Shown here: positions 10,091-19,443 of the stretch, piece after piece
Position numbering within the stretch: position 1 is the stretch's first letter
Layout of the letters: every line of letters begins with the position of its first letter
Assembly: GCF_007860095.1 (NCBI RefSeq)
Contig: NZ_SJPT01000001.1
Coordinates: 124,544-188,543 of the forward strand
Source of the DNA: Novipirellula galeiformis
GTDB lineage: Bacteria; Planctomycetota; Planctomycetia; Pirellulales; Pirellulaceae
Direction: 5' to 3'
DNA length: 64,000 nt
Made by a program: the position numbers and the translations under genes
Notes under the pieces: generated by a model
Database searches by the model: none
What the model was told of the DNA's origin: nothing
What the model saw: the letters and a program-made list of their open reading frames with translations, nothing else

Positions 10091-12745
10091 ATGAACAACA
10101 GTCCGTTCGAAATCTTTCGCAAGAACCTAAAGCCACTCATGGTCCTGCTGATCATGCTGGCAATGTTCTCATTTGTCGTGCTCCCTGCACTTGATACCTA
10201 CCTGCGTCAAGGTGCGGGAGGTGGGGGAGATACGAAGCTTGCCAGTTTCGATGGTATCGAAATTTCTCAGAATCGCGTTTCCTACATGACTCAGAATCAT
10301 CAATCGATGGTTCGTTTTTTGCGAGAACTGGCCGAGCGAACGATCCTCGAGGGTGGATCCCCTAAAACGCCAGGCTTCCGCTACGACGAGCAAAACAAAC
10401 GGGTCGGAGCGCTCGGAATCAGTGAGATGCCGAGTGAGCAATTGTCGCTGAAGACGATGCAGTTTGCCTCCGAAGCGAACAAGGCTGGCTTCGAACTCGA
10501 CAATGCCGCGATCGGGGCTTGGTTGAACATGTTCGTCGACAACCGATTTAGCGACAAGCAAATCGACGCGATGTTGATGGAAAGCACTCGAAACCAAATG
10601 GGTCGCGTGCACCTCTACGAACAATTGCGAATGCACCTGTTAGCCGACATCTATAACCGAACGGGCTTTGCGGTCGTGGCCGCAGGCCAAATGCCGATCA
10701 TGACGCCAGCCGAAGAGTGGAACAATTTCTTGAAGCTCAACCGCGAAGCGACCGTGACCGCCTACGGGATCCCCGTGGAAACCTTCGTCAGCAAGACGGA
10801 TGCCAATCCAAGCGAATCGGACATTCAAGCGATGTACGAAGAGGGCAAGGATACCGACCCTAATGACCAATCACCCCGACCGGCGTTCCATCGCCAATAC
10901 ACCGCCCAATTCGAATACCTAGTCGGCGACCTGCAATCGTTTATCGATGCCGAAGCGGTCAAGTTTAGCGAAGAAGAATTGCGTGCTGAGTACGAGCGTC
11001 GACTCGCCGGCGGCGACTTCAAGTTGCCAGTTGATCCTGCGGAACAAGCTGCTGCGGATGCAACCATGTCAGATGACCTCGAAACCGAAGCGGATACCGT
11101 CGAAGTCAAAGTTGAAGAGATGGAGGCTAAACCGGCCGACGCCCCCGCAGCCAAGGAAGATGCAGCCAAGGAAGACGCAAAACCGGAGGCAAAAAAACCG
11201 GAGGCCAAGGAGGAAGTGAAGAAAGAGGAGCCTGCGAAAGCAGACAGCGAAGAAGCTAAAAACAGCGAAGAATCGGCACCTGAATCCGATGCAACGAGCG
11301 AAGAAACTCCAGCCGATGAAGACAAGACATCACGTCGCCGCCCCATGAACACGGCTAATTCCGCCGTTCGCTTGGTTGCCTTTCAAGAGGCCAGCGACGA
11401 ACCCGCTGACGACGTGAGCAAGGAAACACCCGCGGAACCGAAGCCCGAAGAAAAGCCTGAAGCGAAACCGGCCGATGCTGCTCCGAGCGATGAGAAGCCA
11501 GCGGAGAAGCCAGCCGAGAAGCCGAAAAGCGATGACAAGCCAGCGGACAAACCGAAGGCCGCTGACAAACCGGCTGAAGAAGCGAAACCGGAGATGAAGG
11601 AAGCTCCTGCAAAAGAAGCTCCTGCAAAAGAAGCTCCCGCAAAGGAAGAACCCGCTAAGGAAGAACCTGCGGACGCGAAGGAAACGCCCAAAGCCGAGAT
11701 GGCTGCCGAGGCTAAGCCAGCAGAGACCAAGCCAGCCGCAGAGAAGAAACCGGAAACGGAGTCGTTTGAAGCGGTACGAGAGCAGATTGCCGACTCGCTT
11801 GCTCGTCCAATCGCGGAAGCCAATATGAACAAAGCGATGGCCGAAATGTTTTCGCAAATGCGTCGCTACTTCAACCAGCACGCGATCCACAGCAGTGATA
11901 AACGAAACGGCTTGGAGGTCGAAGAACTGGCCCCGTTTGATTTGAAGAAGCTCGGAGAATCCTTTGGATTCCGCTACCAAAAAATCGGTTCCAACACGGA
12001 GTTTTCGATTGAAGCCGAGCCGATCGCACAATCGCTCGAAGTCGGCTCACAACAACTCAGCCGAGGCCCCTCGTTCACCTCGTTCATGTACGGTGGCCAA
12101 ACTCAAATGGGCCCTGTGCCACGGCAATTGCTATACTCGCCGCTGCGTACCGTCGATGACCGCGGTGGGAAAACCTACATCTCTTGGAAGACTGGAGAGC
12201 AAAAGGCGTACACGCCGAAGCTGGAAGAGGTTCGTGATGAGGTGATCGCGGCGATTCGTTTTCGCGAAGCGCGAAAACTCGCTCTGGAAGCCGCCGTTGA
12301 ATTGGCTGATAAAGCGAACAAGGACGGCCTCGAATTGAGCGAACTTGTCCCTGCCGAAAACAAAGACGACGTTCAATCTGGTTTAGGACCGTTTAGTTGG
12401 ATGGATTCGTTTGGCTTCCAAGGGGCCTCGATTGGCAACGTGCCGGAACTTAATTCGGTGGGTCAAGAGTTCATGAAGGCCGTATTCACGTCCGAAGTCG
12501 GCGAGTACGCCGTGGCCATGAACTTGCCGGAAAGCGTGGTCTATGTTGCCAAACCGACCAACTTTCAACCGAGCATGGACGATCTAAAGGCACTTTTCCA
12601 AAATCCGCGTGAGCGAATGATGGCGATGCTTGCCGGAGGCGGTTCGACAAACGAAGTCGTCCAAGGCTTCTACGAAGCGGTGGACAAGCGAACCGACTTT
12701 TCCTACGCACGTGAACCCGAAGCCGACGACGACTCGCAGTTCTAA
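10091..12745 (+). CDS. PpiD/SurA-like membrane-anchored periplasmic protein with KPAE-rich linker
   Basis: One N-terminal membrane anchor (residues about 15-36, VLLIMLAMFSFVVLPALD) leads into an extracytoplasmic part. Residues 40-315 resemble the SurA_N/PpiD chaperone region (ending SEEELRAEYERR, the usual lead-in to a parvulin domain). The expected parvulin domain is not visible; instead residues about 318-556 are a low-complexity linker of Lys, Pro, Ala, Glu and Asp with KEAPA-type repeats. The C-terminal part resumes PpiD-like features (PKLEEVRDEVIAAIRFREAR). Role inferred: periplasmic folding or envelope chaperone without isomerase activity. 884 residues is longer than E. coli PpiD (623). 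Followed by a strong terminator. Confidence 0.65.
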   Translation: MNNSPFEIFRKNLKPLMVLLIMLAMFSFVVLPALDTYLRQGAGGGGDTKLASFDGIEISQNRVSYMTQNHQSMVRFLRELAERTILEGGSPKTPGFRYDEQNKRVGALGISEMPSEQLSLKTMQFASEANKAGFELDNAAIGAWLNMFVDNRFSDKQIDAMLMESTRNQMGRVHLYEQLRMHLLADIYNRTGFAVVAAGQMPIMTPAEEWNNFLKLNREATVTAYGIPVETFVSKTDANPSESDIQAMYEEGKDTDPNDQSPRPAFHRQYTAQFEYLVGDLQSFIDAEAVKFSEEELRAEYERRLAGGDFKLPVDPAEQAAADATMSDDLETEADTVEVKVEEMEAKPADAPAAKEDAAKEDAKPEAKKPEAKEEVKKEEPAKADSEEAKNSEESAPESDATSEETPADEDKTSRRRPMNTANSAVRLVAFQEASDEPADDVSKETPAEPKPEEKPEAKPADAAPSDEKPAEKPAEKPKSDDKPADKPKAADKPAEEAKPEMKEAPAKEAPAKEAPAKEEPAKEEPADAKETPKAEMAAEAKPAETKPAAEKKPETESFEAVREQIADSLARPIAEANMNKAMAEMFSQMRRYFNQHAIHSSDKRNGLEVEELAPFDLKKLGESFGFRYQKIGSNTEFSIEAEPIAQSLEVGSQQLSRGPSFTSFMYGGQTQMGPVPRQLLYSPLRTVDDRGGKTYISWKTGEQKAYTPKLEEVRDEVIAAIRFREARKLALEAAVELADKANKDGLELSELVPAENKDDVQSGLGPFSWMDSFGFQGASIGNVPELNSVGQEFMKAVFTSEVGEYAVAMNLPESVVYVAKPTNFQPSMDDLKALFQNPRERMMAMLAGGGSTNEVVQGFYEAVDKRTDFSYAREPEADDDSQF

Positions 12746-12805: not shown

Positions 12806-12837
12806 CCCTCCGAGTGCCCAGCACTCGGAGGGTTTTT
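12806..12837 (+). terminator. Intrinsic terminator of the PpiD-like gene
   Basis: Perfect 12-bp stem CCCTCCGAGTGC / GCACTCGGAGGG with a 3-base loop, followed by TTTTT. It lies 61 bp past the stop. The rest of the spacer up to 13063 holds no gene that I can support. Confidence 0.92.
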
Positions 12838-13063
12838 CTTTGCGCCAAAACGAGCGCCACCCCATCGGACAAATCGCCGCGACGGCGGGTTTGAATTTGT
12901 CTTTGCCCGGCTGATTGCCGTTGGCCACTTCGTCTGCACGCTGTTGGTGAAATGCCACTCTGGTGTATAACAACCACCGCGACGTGTTGCCTTGACGACG
13001 TCGCTTAACGAAGCGTGAATTCAGAAGGCGGAATTCAAATCCCCTAAGCTCAGGAGGCTGGCA

Positions 13064-16000
13064 ATGTTCTCATCACAAGTACCCGGAATGCAAAGTAGCG
13101 AGATCGAAAAAGCGGAACTACAACGCGCATTGGGGTGGGACCGTGATCTCTCAAATGATCCAGCTGCCAAAGAAAATTTACGAAATTACATCACCTTGCA
13201 ACTCGCATCCGCGGGGCTGTTGCCACCCGACAGCGAACAAGACCAATCGATGACGACCTTCTCGGCCGGCATCTTAGAGAGTTTGCGTGAGAAGAATCGA
13301 TTATTGTCCGAGTACCGTGCTCCGGTCGACTCGCGAGTGGAAACATTCCTGAATGAATACTTCGCCGACGTGATCGATGGCGACCCGTTACGTTTGCCTG
13401 GCCGCACGTTGACGCTGGACCGCCATGGCATGTCGCGGGAGATGAGCTTGCCAGCGGGCGGATACGAATTCAAGAACGACTTGGTCAGCTCCTATCGCTG
13501 CTTTAATGGCGTGTTGAATAACCCGCGTTCGGATCGGCGAACCACTGCGGGGACGTTTCATGTGGTCGAGGGCGGGTTACCCATCCCCAACGACAAACGG
13601 ATCGTACCCAAACGCGTTTTTGCCAATCTGTTCCGCGCCGCCATGACACCGCCGGACGACTTGATGGTGTTGCCCTACACGGCGACATCGGAAAAGCCTG
13701 CGTTGACCTGGGTATCGCTTTTGATGAGGCCGATCGTGTGCCCCGAGGTCCCAGGGTTTTGTGCCCAAAAGACGATGGAGACTCGCTTTTTTGCACCAGG
13801 CTCGCTGATCAGTAACCTCGATTTTGTCGAAACGATTTTTGGCAATGCGGGCGATCCGCTCAGCAGCCGAAACGACGCGGGGTTGGACGTACTGCATTGG
13901 AGCGGACATACCGGGTGTGTGATTTTGGCAACGCACCTAACCAACATGACCAAGCAAGAACTCGGACTGCCACATTACGACGATGCCACGGATCGACAAC
14001 GTCGCGATGCAATGTGCTGGAAAGACCCATCCGAGAAGTACAACGACGGCAGTGCGTTCAAGTTGACGTGCCGCGACGAGTCGGGCGTGATTGTGACGCT
14101 GATCGCCGATAACTATTACGGCTACTGCAAAAAAGAAGTCAAAACGCAACTCAGCTATGCGACCAATTTGATGGGTGGCTGCGAAGAGGAGCATTCTGGC
14201 GGTGCTCTGGCGTTCGCCTCCTACTCACTCGGTGACGAATTCCAAGTCAACAGCCGCCGCTACAACGGACGTCGGTTCTCGGACGTAGCTCGCGACTACA
14301 CCTCGTTTATCGATATTCAACCTGAGGGCTACGGCATCGACCGACTCGATCCGTGTGTGATTTACATCCCCGAGAATGCAAAAGTAACGTTGATCGAACG
14401 CTGCGTAATGTGGACGCACAACGGCCAACTACAACGCATCCCGCTCTCGCCTGCTAACGTTTACATCGCACCGAGTGGCTACAAAATCCGACTCGAAAAA
14501 CATCCTGCCGCACCGTCGTGGCGATTGATCGGGTCAGCCGGTGAAGGCATTTTTTGTCACAAACCATGCACGGTTAGCGGTGGCGGAAAAAGCGAAATTA
14601 GCAAAAGCCTCCGCGACTACATGTTGTATGGACCGATCTTCGTCACCGATCGTGAAGCGGATTTCGCGAAACTCGACGAGATTTTTTCGCGTTCCTATCA
14701 TGACCGCTGGTCCCAGGAATATACCGGACGCACCGATTACTCCGAGCGACCCAGCCGCCGAGTCCTCGACCCCAAGCGAAGTCTCGGCAGTGTGATTCAA
14801 TTATTGACTCCGTCACCCGATTACAACGACGACTACAACAAGTGGTTGCGTGCCATTCCAGAACACGTTTATTCGATGGCGTTGATCATCAAACGGTTCA
14901 TCCGATCGGGAATGGAACAAAACTGGCACGAGCATTTTGGCGTCGACATCGTCAACGGTTCGGCCGGACATGAACTCAAAATAGGCGACCGCGCGTTGGT
15001 CGGAACCTACTTGCGAGTCGGTTGGGACGACCATCGATGGCGAACCTTCAAGCTACGTCAAGACTTTATCGCTGCGGACAAGGTCCAACGCGAAGACGAC
15101 ATTAGCGTTAGTGTCGTCGTGCCTGCGGAAGTCTTGGGCGATGTGGGCAAAGCGGTCACGCCATCGGCGAGCTACAAGTTCGTGGAAAATTGTGAATACC
15201 GATTGTTCCAGCGTCCCGATGACGCGGTGCACCGTGGATTGGACAAGCAAACCGAACTCGATCTTTCGCGTCCGGGTAGCTTTATCAGTAACTTTGAACC
15301 ATTAACAACCACGCAAGCTCGCGAGATCGTGGACGACGCGATCGAATTCGACAAGTTCACAGGACCGATGGAATCGCTGTTGCTCGAAGCGGCCAAGTCT
15401 CGCAATGGCTACGTGGTTAGCACCGCAGATCCACGGATCGTCGATGGGGCGCGAACCAAGAACCCACGCTATTTGCAGGACCGACCAGACATGGTTAACG
15501 CGCGCGACAGCTATGTCGCAATGCGAGGAACCCAATTGCATCGTTGCTTACCCGAGGATGCTCCGGTGCATTTCCCCGTCGGCGCCGTGCTTTCCGGACG
15601 TCGCAACAATCCACCGGATCCGGTTGCCGGATTCCGTTCGCTCGCGGTCTATTCCCCGCTGCACTATCAAGAGCTGCCTGAGTTGTTGATGGATTACATT
15701 TGTTCGTTGACCGGCAAAAGCCCCAGTACAACCGGCGCGGGCAGCGAAGGAGCGTTAACCAAAGGACCGTTTAACGCCTTGATGCCCTCAGTGGATCTGA
15801 ATTCCGCGGTCGTCTCGATGATCTTGACCGGCCTTGGCGGCTTCAGCACCGCGGCGGGTCACGTCGGACCTCGTTTCGAAGTGGGACACGATATTTCATT
15901 GCTGATTCCTGAAGTTTGGTGCCGACTTGGCCCCGAAGAACGCGATCCGGCAGCGATGATCCAAGGCAAGATGCTGGAAAAGATCGAAGACTTTGACCAC

Positions 16001-16621
16001 GGCGATTTGCGGGTTCCGGCCAGCCGATTGGGCTACCGTATTACCACACGTTTCGTAAGAACCTATCTTGCTCGCGTGTTTGACAATCCCTCGAAGGTGT
16101 TTACACCTGAGATCCTACAACCTGAGTTGCAAGACATCGATTCCTACGTCGACGGCATCCTGCATATCGCCGAAGCTCAAAAACGCGTTGCATTGTCGTA
16201 CATGGAAGACGGTGGCTACGAATTGGCGTGCCCTCCGTTGCAAGCCATTTTGAACATCATGGCCTATGGTGAACACGAAGGGAAACTCGCCAGCGATCCT
16301 GAAATTCGTGAAATGTTCACGCGTGATGCCCTGCTCAAAAGCGATTGGTACGCCCGTCGTTTGCAAAAGAAACAAAATCGCGATATCGAACATTGGCGAG
16401 CCTTCGAAGAACGGCTCAAAGCGAGCCTCGCCGACTCAACCCAAAGTGATTCCTCGACCGATTTGCAATTGCCCAACCGCTTAGGGTACGCATCCGAGAT
16501 GCGCGCCCATGCAGAGTCGAGCGACTACTTGGAAGAACTTGTGGGCACACTCGGAGCGGATCCCATGCGTCCAAGCCTGACCGACCCTTCCATGGTCAAC
16601 CGCATAGCCAGCGATCGCTAG
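13064..16621 (+). CDS. Candidate pyrophosphate-dependent phosphoenolpyruvate carboxykinase (PPi-PEPCK-like)
   Basis: A 1185-residue soluble protein with no signal peptide or membrane segment. Its size (about 130 kDa) matches the PPi-type PEP carboxykinases described from Propionibacterium freudenreichii and Entamoeba, and several stretches recall that family: SGHTGCVILA, ADNYYGYCKKEVKTQLSYA, and the P-loop-like glycine motif VSGGGKSEISKS at about residues 503-514. That family interconverts oxaloacetate plus PPi with PEP plus phosphate and CO2. The assignment is from memory of family features, not alignment. A perfect AGGAGG at 13052-13057 sits 6 bases before the ATG, suggesting strong expression. 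It is monocistronic, with its own terminator. Otherwise it would be a large conserved protein of unknown function. Confidence 0.6.
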   Translation: MFSSQVPGMQSSEIEKAELQRALGWDRDLSNDPAAKENLRNYITLQLASAGLLPPDSEQDQSMTTFSAGILESLREKNRLLSEYRAPVDSRVETFLNEYFADVIDGDPLRLPGRTLTLDRHGMSREMSLPAGGYEFKNDLVSSYRCFNGVLNNPRSDRRTTAGTFHVVEGGLPIPNDKRIVPKRVFANLFRAAMTPPDDLMVLPYTATSEKPALTWVSLLMRPIVCPEVPGFCAQKTMETRFFAPGSLISNLDFVETIFGNAGDPLSSRNDAGLDVLHWSGHTGCVILATHLTNMTKQELGLPHYDDATDRQRRDAMCWKDPSEKYNDGSAFKLTCRDESGVIVTLIADNYYGYCKKEVKTQLSYATNLMGGCEEEHSGGALAFASYSLGDEFQVNSRRYNGRRFSDVARDYTSFIDIQPEGYGIDRLDPCVIYIPENAKVTLIERCVMWTHNGQLQRIPLSPANVYIAPSGYKIRLEKHPAAPSWRLIGSAGEGIFCHKPCTVSGGGKSEISKSLRDYMLYGPIFVTDREADFAKLDEIFSRSYHDRWSQEYTGRTDYSERPSRRVLDPKRSLGSVIQLLTPSPDYNDDYNKWLRAIPEHVYSMALIIKRFIRSGMEQNWHEHFGVDIVNGSAGHELKIGDRALVGTYLRVGWDDHRWRTFKLRQDFIAADKVQREDDISVSVVVPAEVLGDVGKAVTPSASYKFVENCEYRLFQRPDDAVHRGLDKQTELDLSRPGSFISNFEPLTTTQAREIVDDAIEFDKFTGPMESLLLEAAKSRNGYVVSTADPRIVDGARTKNPRYLQDRPDMVNARDSYVAMRGTQLHRCLPEDAPVHFPVGAVLSGRRNNPPDPVAGFRSLAVYSPLHYQELPELLMDYICSLTGKSPSTTGAGSEGALTKGPFNALMPSVDLNSAVVSMILTGLGGFSTAAGHVGPRFEVGHDISLLIPEVWCRLGPEERDPAAMIQGKMLEKIEDFDHGDLRVPASRLGYRITTRFVRTYLARVFDNPSKVFTPEILQPELQDIDSYVDGILHIAEAQKRVALSYMEDGGYELACPPLQAILNIMAYGEHEGKLASDPEIREMFTRDALLKSDWYARRLQKKQNRDIEHWRAFEERLKASLADSTQSDSSTDLQLPNRLGYASEMRAHAESSDYLEELVGTLGADPMRPSLTDPSMVNRIASDR

Positions 16622-16646: not shown

Positions 16647-16684
16647 AAAACGGCATGACGGTCACCGTCGTGCCGTTTTTTCTT
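16647..16684 (+). terminator. Intrinsic terminator of the PEPCK-like gene
   Basis: Stem AACGGCATGACGG / CCGTCGTGCCGTT (one G-T pair) with loop TCA and a T-rich tail TTTTTTCTTTT. It starts 26 bp past the stop codon. The minus-strand sulfur operon ends convergently about 100 bp further on. Confidence 0.9.
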
Positions 16685-16782: not shown

Positions 16783-17388
16783 TTAACGCACTGCGAACAT
16801 TTCGACAATGGCCAAAACGATACCGAGAACAACAGCCTGGGCCAGCACGACCAGCGTCCGATTGGCGTGGATCCAATCATGCAACGTAAGCTTGCCTCGG
16901 TCACCGATTCTGTCGAGATGACGGCTGATCCAACCGGATGCTTCAGCGAACAAATACGATCCCACCACCATTCCGAGCATCATGAACAGGGCGTCGTAGT
17001 TTCCTTGCCCCAGTGCGGCGGCCCCGGTTCCGGGACAATAAGCTGAGAGGGCGAAACCAACGCCAAACAGCAGACCGCCGAGCGCGTTCGAAGCGTAGCG
17101 TGTCGGTTTGACATGCAGTTGAACCCAACCCATGCGATGCAGAAAATGAATGCCGATTGAACCGACCACGACCGCGGATAACATGACTTTTAATACGGTA
17201 AAGTCCTCGAGCAGCAATTGACCGATCAAAACATGGTATTTTGCAACGCCCCCCTTCTGCAGCAGAAAACCAAAGATGATGCCGAACATCAGACCTAGCG
17301 CAAGGGTTTGCCCCGAGGCAGCCGCAGGCAGTTTTTGCGTTTCGACGGGTGGGGTTTCCGGTTCAATCTCTGGGGTCGTGGTCGCCAT
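16783..17388 (-). CDS. YeeE/YedE family transporter half (sulfur compound uptake), second subunit
   Basis: Small integral membrane protein with about four hydrophobic segments: LALGLMFGIIFGFLLQKG, a segment around VMLSAVVVGSIGIHFL, GGLLFGVGFALSAYCPG and a C-terminal segment near VLAQAVVLGIVLAIVEM. The YeeE-type cysteine motif is SAYCPGTGAAALGQG. YeeE/YedE proteins take up thiosulfate or related sulfur species; in many bacteria they are split into two half-size subunits, as here. It is the last gene of a three-gene operon, 37 bp after the other half, with AGGGAG before the ATG. Substrate is inferred from the neighbouring persulfide dioxygenase. Confidence 0.85.
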   Translation of the reverse strand: MATTTPEIEPETPPVETQKLPAAASGQTLALGLMFGIIFGFLLQKGGVAKYHVLIGQLLLEDFTVLKVMLSAVVVGSIGIHFLHRMGWVQLHVKPTRYASNALGGLLFGVGFALSAYCPGTGAAALGQGNYDALFMMLGMVVGSYLFAEASGWISRHLDRIGDRGKLTLHDWIHANRTLVVLAQAVVLGIVLAIVEMFAVR

Positions 17389-17425
17389 GGTTTTCTCCCT
17401 TGCAAGCTCTAAGTCTTATTTCGAT

Positions 17426-17983
17426 CTAAACGGCAAACATCAACATCGCAGCAATGATGCCGCCGATGAAAAAGCAGATTGCCGAAACCCACGAACCGAT
17501 CGCAAGTTGCAACGTCCCGCTAATGCCATGCCCGCTGGTACATCCACCCGCCATGCGAGCTCCGAAAGCCATCATGATCCCGCCCACCAGCGCGACTGCC
17601 ATTCGCAACGTCGCACTGTCGGTGCCGAACCGATCCTGCCACATCTCCGGCAGCAATCGGCCCGTCAATTCACTACCACTCCAAGCCGCTAGAAACGCGC
17701 CGAGAATGACGCCAACGACCAACATCAATTCCCAGCCAATCCGTGGCGGATTGCTCTGGAAATATTTCAGCGATCGAGTGTGCTGAGGGGCGACTCGCTC
17801 GCCGATCATGCCAGCAACGCGGGCGTACGCAGTCGATGCGCCTATCGGCTTCTTCGAGAAATAGAAGGTCAACATCGAAAGCACGCCGATTAAGCCGCCC
17901 ACTAGATAAGGTGACCAAGCGGGTCCTGAGTATTGCAGCGGGTCGACGACAGCTAACATCGGAGCGGTTGTGGCGGACATCAT
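17426..17983 (-). CDS. YeeE/YedE family transporter half (sulfur compound uptake), first subunit
   Basis: A 185-residue membrane protein with four predicted hydrophobic segments and the family cysteine signature ARMAGGCTSGHGISG near residues 144-158. An SGS/ELTGRLLPEM loop precedes the third segment. Together with the downstream half it would form one full YeeE/YedE-like channel, or two half-units that dimerise. It lies 65 bp downstream of the persulfide dioxygenase-rhodanese gene and 37 bp upstream of its partner, so the three are almost certainly one transcript. Role inferred: moving thiosulfate, sulfite or sulfide-derived species across the inner membrane. Confidence 0.87.
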   Translation of the reverse strand: MMSATTAPMLAVVDPLQYSGPAWSPYLVGGLIGVLSMLTFYFSKKPIGASTAYARVAGMIGERVAPQHTRSLKYFQSNPPRIGWELMLVVGVILGAFLAAWSGSELTGRLLPEMWQDRFGTDSATLRMAVALVGGIMMAFGARMAGGCTSGHGISGTLQLAIGSWVSAICFFIGGIIAAMLMFAV

Positions 17984-18048
17984 GATCGTTTCTTCGCGTT
18001 GAAAGGGACTATAGAGTTGCGTCGTTGAGATGCGAATTGCTTCTCTAC

Positions 18049-19443
18049 TTACTTCTCAGCGGGAAACCCCGCCGCGGACCATGCACTCCAACTGCCGGGC
18101 ACATTGGAGACGTCTTTAAATCCTCGCGATCGCATCAAACTCGCCGCGATACTCGCCCGGTAACCGCTGGCACAGTAGGTTGCGTACGGTGTTTCTTTGT
18201 CGAGTCCTGTGATTCGATCCCGCATCTCTCCAATGAAATGGTGCTGGGCACCCGGGATGTGTCCTGATTTCCATTCTTCGGGTGAACGGACATCCAAGAT
18301 TTTCAAAGGCGATCCATTGGTTTGCTGTGCTCGCAACTCGGCGACTGGGATTTGCGACAAACTCTCGATCGGTAGTCCGGCCATCTCCCAGGCCTTCATT
18401 CCTCCCGCCAAGTAGCCAGCGAATTGAGCATGCCCAGTGCGGACGATCAAACGCTGGATCGATTCTGCATCGCGATCCTCATCGAGAACCAACAGGAGCC
18501 GTTGATCAAGATCAAACATTTGGCCAACCCATGCGGACATTTCAGGACGATTGCCGATGTTGATCGCCCCCGGCACGTGGCCGCCACCAAACGCCAGCAT
18601 TGATCGCGTATCGATGATACTCAAGCCCGGTTCACGAGCCACTTTGCGGAATTCATCCGGCGGCAATGCGGCAATCGTAGGCAGACGCGACATCACGGCG
18701 GGACCCGCTGAGTTGACTTTCTTCAGCTCCGCGTAATGCCAAGGAGCCGGCGGGGCGTCTTCCACAACAAATTTGCGAAACGCGTCAAAATTGGGGAATT
18801 TCAGAAACGTATTGGTTCTTCGCTCATACCCGATCGTGCTGACCAATCGATCTCCGATGTCCGCGCCACAGGCGGACCCCGCACCATGGCCTGGGTAGAT
18901 CGCGACGAAATCATCAAGGCTCAGAAAGTAGTCGTACAGCGTCGCATACAATTTTTCCGCAAGCGCACCGGTCTCAGCGGCGCCAAGCAAATCGGGACGC
19001 CCAGCGGACCCCACGAACAATGAGTCTCCCGTGAACACCGCCCAGGGTGTGTCCGCATGCTTGCTTTCGCACACTTCGTACGCGAGGTGCTCTGGCGTAT
19101 GTCCCGGTGTATGCCGAGCGGTCAACAGGAATGAACCAAAGTCAAACTGCTGACCATCAAAGACGGGTTCCCCATCGAATTGGTAGTTGGCTTGCTCTCC
19201 GCTGAGATAGATCTTTGCGGTACCAACTTGGTCGGCAAGCGACCGACTTCCACTCACAAAATCAGCGTGAATGTGCGTTTCGAAAATATGAGTAATCGAA
19301 AGTCCATGTTCTCGAGCAAGCTGCAAATAGATCTCCACATCGGTGCGTGGATCAATCACCGCCGCATGCCCGGTCGCAGTGTCTCCTACCAAGTAAGAAA
19401 GTTGTGCAATGCCATCGGTGAGGATGGATTCAAGAACGAACAT
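18049..19443 (-). CDS. Persulfide dioxygenase (ETHE1-like MBL) fused to two rhodanese domains
   Basis: The N-terminal metallo-beta-lactamase domain (1-240) has metal ligands H57, H59 and D61 in THIHADF, H115 in HTPGHTPEH and D140 in FTGDSLFVG, the ETHE1 pattern oxidising glutathione or protein persulfide to sulfite. A first rhodanese domain (about 258-350) lacks a catalytic cysteine: its active-loop position reads VLDEDRDAES. A second (about 370-464) keeps C424 in the CASGYR loop. PDO-rhodanese fusions act in sulfide detoxification; sulfite made by the PDO and persulfide carried by the rhodanese can give thiosulfate. First gene of the operon with the two YeeE/YedE halves. GGGAGA precedes the ATG. 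Confidence 0.92.
   Translation of the reverse strand: MFVLESILTDGIAQLSYLVGDTATGHAAVIDPRTDVEIYLQLAREHGLSITHIFETHIHADFVSGSRSLADQVGTAKIYLSGEQANYQFDGEPVFDGQQFDFGSFLLTARHTPGHTPEHLAYEVCESKHADTPWAVFTGDSLFVGSAGRPDLLGAAETGALAEKLYATLYDYFLSLDDFVAIYPGHGAGSACGADIGDRLVSTIGYERRTNTFLKFPNFDAFRKFVVEDAPPAPWHYAELKKVNSAGPAVMSRLPTIAALPPDEFRKVAREPGLSIIDTRSMLAFGGGHVPGAINIGNRPEMSAWVGQMFDLDQRLLLVLDEDRDAESIQRLIVRTGHAQFAGYLAGGMKAWEMAGLPIESLSQIPVAELRAQQTNGSPLKILDVRSPEEWKSGHIPGAQHHFIGEMRDRITGLDKETPYATYCASGYRASIAASLMRSRGFKDVSNVPGSWSAWSAAGFPAEK

Follow-up and report, generated by a model that had tools for sequence, protein, structure and literature searches.

The open reading frame at 13064..16621 on the + strand of the window, the whole stretch of 64,000 nucleotides that was analysed, almost certainly encodes a PPi-type PEP carboxykinase (PPi-PEPCK; PEP carboxytransphosphorylase, EC 4.1.1.38), and it appears to be an ordinary orthologue. 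Enzymes of this type interconvert PEP, CO2 and phosphate with oxaloacetate and PPi, and the original papers on the family are reportedly those of Chiba from 2015 and 2019. The catalytic activity of the window protein is predicted from its sequence. A guess made from raw sequence in an earlier note was confirmed at the level of sequence; the gene itself is unsurprising. The frame has 1185 codons for amino acids, begins with ATG and ends with TAG, in agreement with the earlier description of a 1185-residue protein at this place.

13064..16621, + strand: probable gene for PPi-type PEP carboxykinase (EC 4.1.1.38), based on the open reading frame, the match to 6k31 and 8e1u, and conserved positions

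The identity of the enzyme was assessed by a phmmer search against PDB sequences. Two entries were matched with E = 0, AiPEPCK (6k31) at 1096 bits and a PPi-dependent PEPCK (8e1u) at 1071 bits. The window protein shares 47.3% identity with 6k31 over 1160 aligned columns and 46.6% with 8e1u over 1138 columns. The match spans residues 29-1167 of 1185, and its C-terminal half was obtained again in a repeat search. Two further PDB rows are probably chance matches (E = 0.22 and 0.45). The earlier note had proposed a PPi-type PEPCK and had called for a full-length comparison with characterised enzymes of this type; similarity of about 47% identity over residues 29-1167 was found to both. The characterised enzymes compared were these two PDB sequences. 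The length of the window protein, 1185 aa, is close to that of 6k31 (1153 aa) and 8e1u (1131 aa) and lies in the range of about 1100-1200 aa taken for PPi-type PEPCK; nucleotide-type PEPCKs are about half this size.

The Pfam scan of the window protein gave one match, below cut-off at E 0.35 and taken as chance, and the NCBIfam scan gave none. This absence fits with a gap noted in an excerpt of a 2020 review, according to which InterPro has no described family for PPi-PEPCK (PMC8100219). Assignment to the ATP- or GTP-type PEPCKs, which share with the window protein the name of the reaction and nothing more, is contradicted by the sequence and is extremely improbable. The ATP-type models (PF01293, TIGR00224) were unmatched by the window protein in the Pfam and NCBIfam scans, as was the GTP-type model (PF00821) in the Pfam scan, and the ATP-PEPCK of the genome is a separate gene with a frame of at most 572 aa versus 1185 aa.

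For an alignment, 97 rows were prepared: the window protein, two PDB chains, 14 loci from relatives (L003-L016) and 80 loci from a profile scan. The 91 rows with at least 1050 columns each were kept. Those dropped were L045, L048 and L112, whose matches were cut at contig ends, L016, whose gene is divided between two frames, and L054 and L062. The residue of the window protein recurs at 171 positions in 99% or more of the 91 aligned homologues. The three motifs on which the earlier note had relied (residues 280-289, 348-362 and 504-515) proved near-invariant in the 91 homologues and near-identical in 6k31 and 8e1u. Two of the conserved segments are as follows.

14102..14149, + strand: IADNYYGYCKKEVKTQ, residues 347-362, likely active-site segment, a presumptive role
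14573..14608, + strand: VSGGGKSEISKS, residues 504-515, glycine/lysine-rich loop, presumed to bind phosphate

The IADNYYGYCKKEVKTQ segment is identical in 6k31 and has one change in 8e1u. The loop VSGGGKSEISKS sits in KPCTVSGGGKSEISKS in 70 of the 91 homologues, and both solved enzymes carry KPATVSGGGKSEISKS. The motifs DNYYGYCKKEVK, VSGGGKSEISK and GKSPSTTGAGSEGALTK, which were picked from our own alignment and not from the literature, were found in the window protein, with counts taken over the 91 homologues including both solved enzymes.

Comparison with two same-genus orthologues gave dN of ~0.077 and dS of ~1.6-1.8, rough figures with dS near saturation; they point to strong purifying selection on the gene. 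It is present in a single copy in its own genome. It is very unlikely that the window protein belongs to the PPi-PEPCK family with a lost or changed activity. The genome does carry an ATP-PEPCK, and the active status of the window protein is a prediction, but the strong purifying selection, the conserved motifs, the 171 near-invariant positions and the single copy all argue against such a change.

The sequence around the gene was examined for expression signals, with the following features.

12962..12971, + strand: GGTGTATAAC, candidate -10 element with a putative promoter role, unchanged in each of the three same-genus leaders
13015..13056, + strand: conserved leader block, GAATTC-N8-GAATTC followed by TCCCCTAAGCTCAGGAG, in which 40 of 42 columns do not vary among the three same-genus leaders
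13052..13057, + strand: Shine-Dalgarno sequence AGGAGG, read directly, with the AGGAG core kept in both same-genus genomes
16647..16679, + strand: terminator-like hairpin of 15 pairs with a T run, 3′ of the PPi-PEPCK gene

Six bases separate the Shine-Dalgarno sequence from the ATG. On the 5′ side, a hairpin of 12 pairs and a T run at 12806-12832 lies between the gene and the upstream + strand frame at 10091-12745, and the next large frames downstream are on the - strand. Since hairpins flank the gene and the downstream large frames lie on the opposite strand, the earlier label 'monocistronic' is reasonable and the gene is apparently a single-gene unit, although terminator-like sites in this region are about as numerous (7) as in shuffled sequence (mean 5.8). 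The leader block and GGTGTATAAC are kept across 3 of 3 same-genus genomes, despite synonymous sites near saturation. The block may be an operator or a leader element. A consensus promoter scan did not list GGTGTATAAC (12962-12971). The GAATTC pair was found in 3 of 89 extracted leaders (97 loci tried), all of the same genus; start codons elsewhere were guessed crudely, which makes the absence there weak. Two Rfam matches in the leader were far below gathering scores and were taken as chance.

The neighbours of the gene were determined by a Pfam scan of eight window frames. They comprise topoisomerase I, an 884-aa protein and, on the opposite strand, two sulfur-transport proteins and a rhodanese/metallo-beta-lactamase protein. 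No clear metabolic link to PPi-PEPCK was seen among the eight frames scanned. At 16783-19443 on the - strand, the two sulfur-transport proteins (PF04143) adjoin, each matching another part of the profile, next to the metallo-beta-lactamase/rhodanese fusion; this group is perhaps a cluster for sulfur or persulfide handling. The 884-aa protein (10091-12745, + strand) has a hydrophobic stretch near the N-terminus and a long Lys/Pro/Ala/Glu-rich stretch, and matched no Pfam family at E 0.001.

Scanning genome contigs with a profile yielded at least 547 confirmed relatives. The best 80 of these, which were kept, include Planctomycetota, Pseudomonadota (Methylomonas, Thiocystis and Thiocapsa among them) and Bacteroidota. 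When the 91 rows were placed in a quick maximum-likelihood tree, these three phyla required one change each, with supports of 99, 100 and 100, respectively; the tree is midpoint-rooted, 18 of its 91 rows have no group and 6 are of odd composition, and the best matches form an uneven sample. The branch with support 99 has the Planctomycetota homologues on one side. The window protein groups with the two orthologues from its genus, to which it is 88% identical, and Pirellulaceae including Stieleria and Rubripirellula are close by. It falls inside a clade of named Planctomycetota, which bears out the planctomycete origin that had been suggested from sequence alone. Among 241 genomes of the family, its own included, a PPi-PEPCK match was found in 152, some of the matches being fragments, and among 40 relatives, again with its own genome, in 15. 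In one same-family genome the match is split over two frames near residue 1032 (L016, L017), either by a broken gene or by a sequencing error.

The metabolic setting was examined in the genome assembly (7.40 Mb, 30 contigs, completeness 100, contamination 4.14). An ATP-PEPCK is present on contig C15 as an unbroken frame of 572 aa above the TIGR00224 cut-off; because the match covers residues 50-571, the true start is probably further inside the frame. At this level of contamination, a gene on another contig, such as this one, is not proven to be the organism's own; both same-genus genomes carry ATP-PEPCK too. Pyruvate carboxylase and PPDK are present, as is a membrane pyrophosphatase above the cut-offs of NCBIfam NF001954, NF001960 and TIGR01104. 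The genome search gave no match for GTP-PEPCK, for family I soluble pyrophosphatase or, in this assembly of 30 contigs, for PEP carboxylase. Both other same-genus genomes searched have PEP carboxylase, so its absence here reflects either loss of the gene in the recent past or a gap in the assembly. The one phosphofructokinase (PFK) carries GGDD and PKTIDND, which we take to be PPi-type signatures, and may be PPi-type; its best NCBIfam model is PPi-type (237.9 bits, far below the cut-off of 550) and the second is an ATP-type subfamily (170.8 against 253). Both types of PEPCK, PPi and ATP, thus occur in this genome, along with further enzymes linked to PPi. According to the earlier note, central carbon flux would be coupled to PPi instead of ATP or GTP. 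Because the genome also encodes an ATP-PEPCK with an unbroken frame, this claim is supported only in part. The implication that PPi has taken the place of ATP is overstated, and PPi-PEPCK seems, from the gene content, to add a PPi route beside the ATP one.

We infer that the two carboxykinases work side by side in this cell, and we tentatively prefer a division of labour between them. The ATP-type enzyme would make PEP for gluconeogenesis, and PPi-PEPCK would carboxylate PEP to oxaloacetate. The PPi released by it would serve a PPi-type phosphofructokinase as well as PPDK and the membrane pyrophosphatase. That carboxylation with formation of PPi is the favoured direction of PPi-PEPCK is our guess; the sequence cannot tell which of the two enzymes carries the flux, or in which direction. 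Against the division of labour, co-occurrence in the 241 genomes gives no support, the pyruvate carboxylase can supply oxaloacetate as well, and the PFK type is read from signature residues, with the NCBIfam PPi-type and ATP-type models both below cut-off.

A rather unlikely alternative, which concerns direction and not identity, is that PPi-PEPCK is mainly gluconeogenic and spends biosynthetic PPi to convert oxaloacetate to PEP, more cheaply than the ATP enzyme. Data from extracts of Methylotuvimicrobium alcaliphilum are called consistent with conversion of malate to PEP via malate dehydrogenase and PPi-PEPCK in an excerpt of PMC6860931. PPi may also be available in the cell, because no family I soluble pyrophosphatase was found in the genome. 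However, the ATP-PEPCK is already there for this direction, and the membrane pyrophosphatase competes for PPi.

A stronger form of the carboxylating role, in which PPi-PEPCK would be a main anaplerotic CO2-fixing enzyme in this planctomycete, apparently without PEP carboxylase, and PPi would be recycled via PPi-type PFK and an ion-pumping membrane pyrophosphatase, is doubtful. If it were true, anaplerosis would conserve energy rather than waste it. In the 241 family genomes (own genome included; 82 of them less complete or more contaminated), there are 152 with PPi-PEPCK and 140 with PEP carboxylase. Both were found in 94, PPi-PEPCK only in 58, PEP carboxylase only in 46 and neither in 43 (by subtraction). 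No avoidance was seen (Fisher p = 0.14, odds ratio 1.5, uncorrected for phylogeny), and replacement of PEP carboxylase by PPi-PEPCK is not supported. The anaplerotic role is thus a guess for this genome and no family rule. Likewise, PPi-PEPCK and ATP-PEPCK did not exclude each other in the 40 relatives including its own genome (both in 13, PPi-type only in 2, ATP-type only in 20, neither in 5).

The window protein was compared with the known enzymes. It has a similar length to AiPEPCK (6k31), which we take to be the Actinomyces israelii enzyme, and the same motifs; its residues 1-28 and 1168-1185 fall outside the match. The 8e1u enzyme, presumably from Propionibacterium freudenreichii, clusters with 6k31 in the tree, apart from the Planctomycetota and the window protein. 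The PPi-type PEPCK (6k31) is a homodimer according to a review excerpt. PPi-PEPCK is placed in limited yet diverse lineages, most holders having an ATP or GTP type as well, in the excerpt of PMC8100219.

No functional study of PPi-PEPCK in planctomycetes was found among the open-licence papers listed. As an annotation, the enzyme is already in print for the phylum, since excerpts of the species descriptions of Rosistilla, Thalassoglobus and Maioricimonas list it. The excerpt for Maioricimonas rarisocia lists a 4.1.1.38 enzyme, like our genome, but its table gives one locus tag to both this enzyme and gpmI, and the entry is doubtful (PMC7716917). For Thalassoglobus polymorphus, the excerpted table lists the 4.1.1.38 enzyme and not ATP-PEPCK (PMC7716918), whereas our genome has ATP-PEPCK. 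Planctomycetes that differ in whether they have PEP carboxylase and ATP-PEPCK would be good material for determining the direction of PPi-PEPCK in vivo. The excerpt on Rosistilla strains CA51, Mal33 and Poly24 lists PEP carboxylase, which was not found in our genome, together with PPi-type and ATP-type PEPCK, PPDK, pyruvate carboxylase and pfp (PMC7716947). Likened by listing and not by sequence, our genome resembles these strains in its PPi-type and ATP-type PEPCK, PPDK and pyruvate carboxylase.
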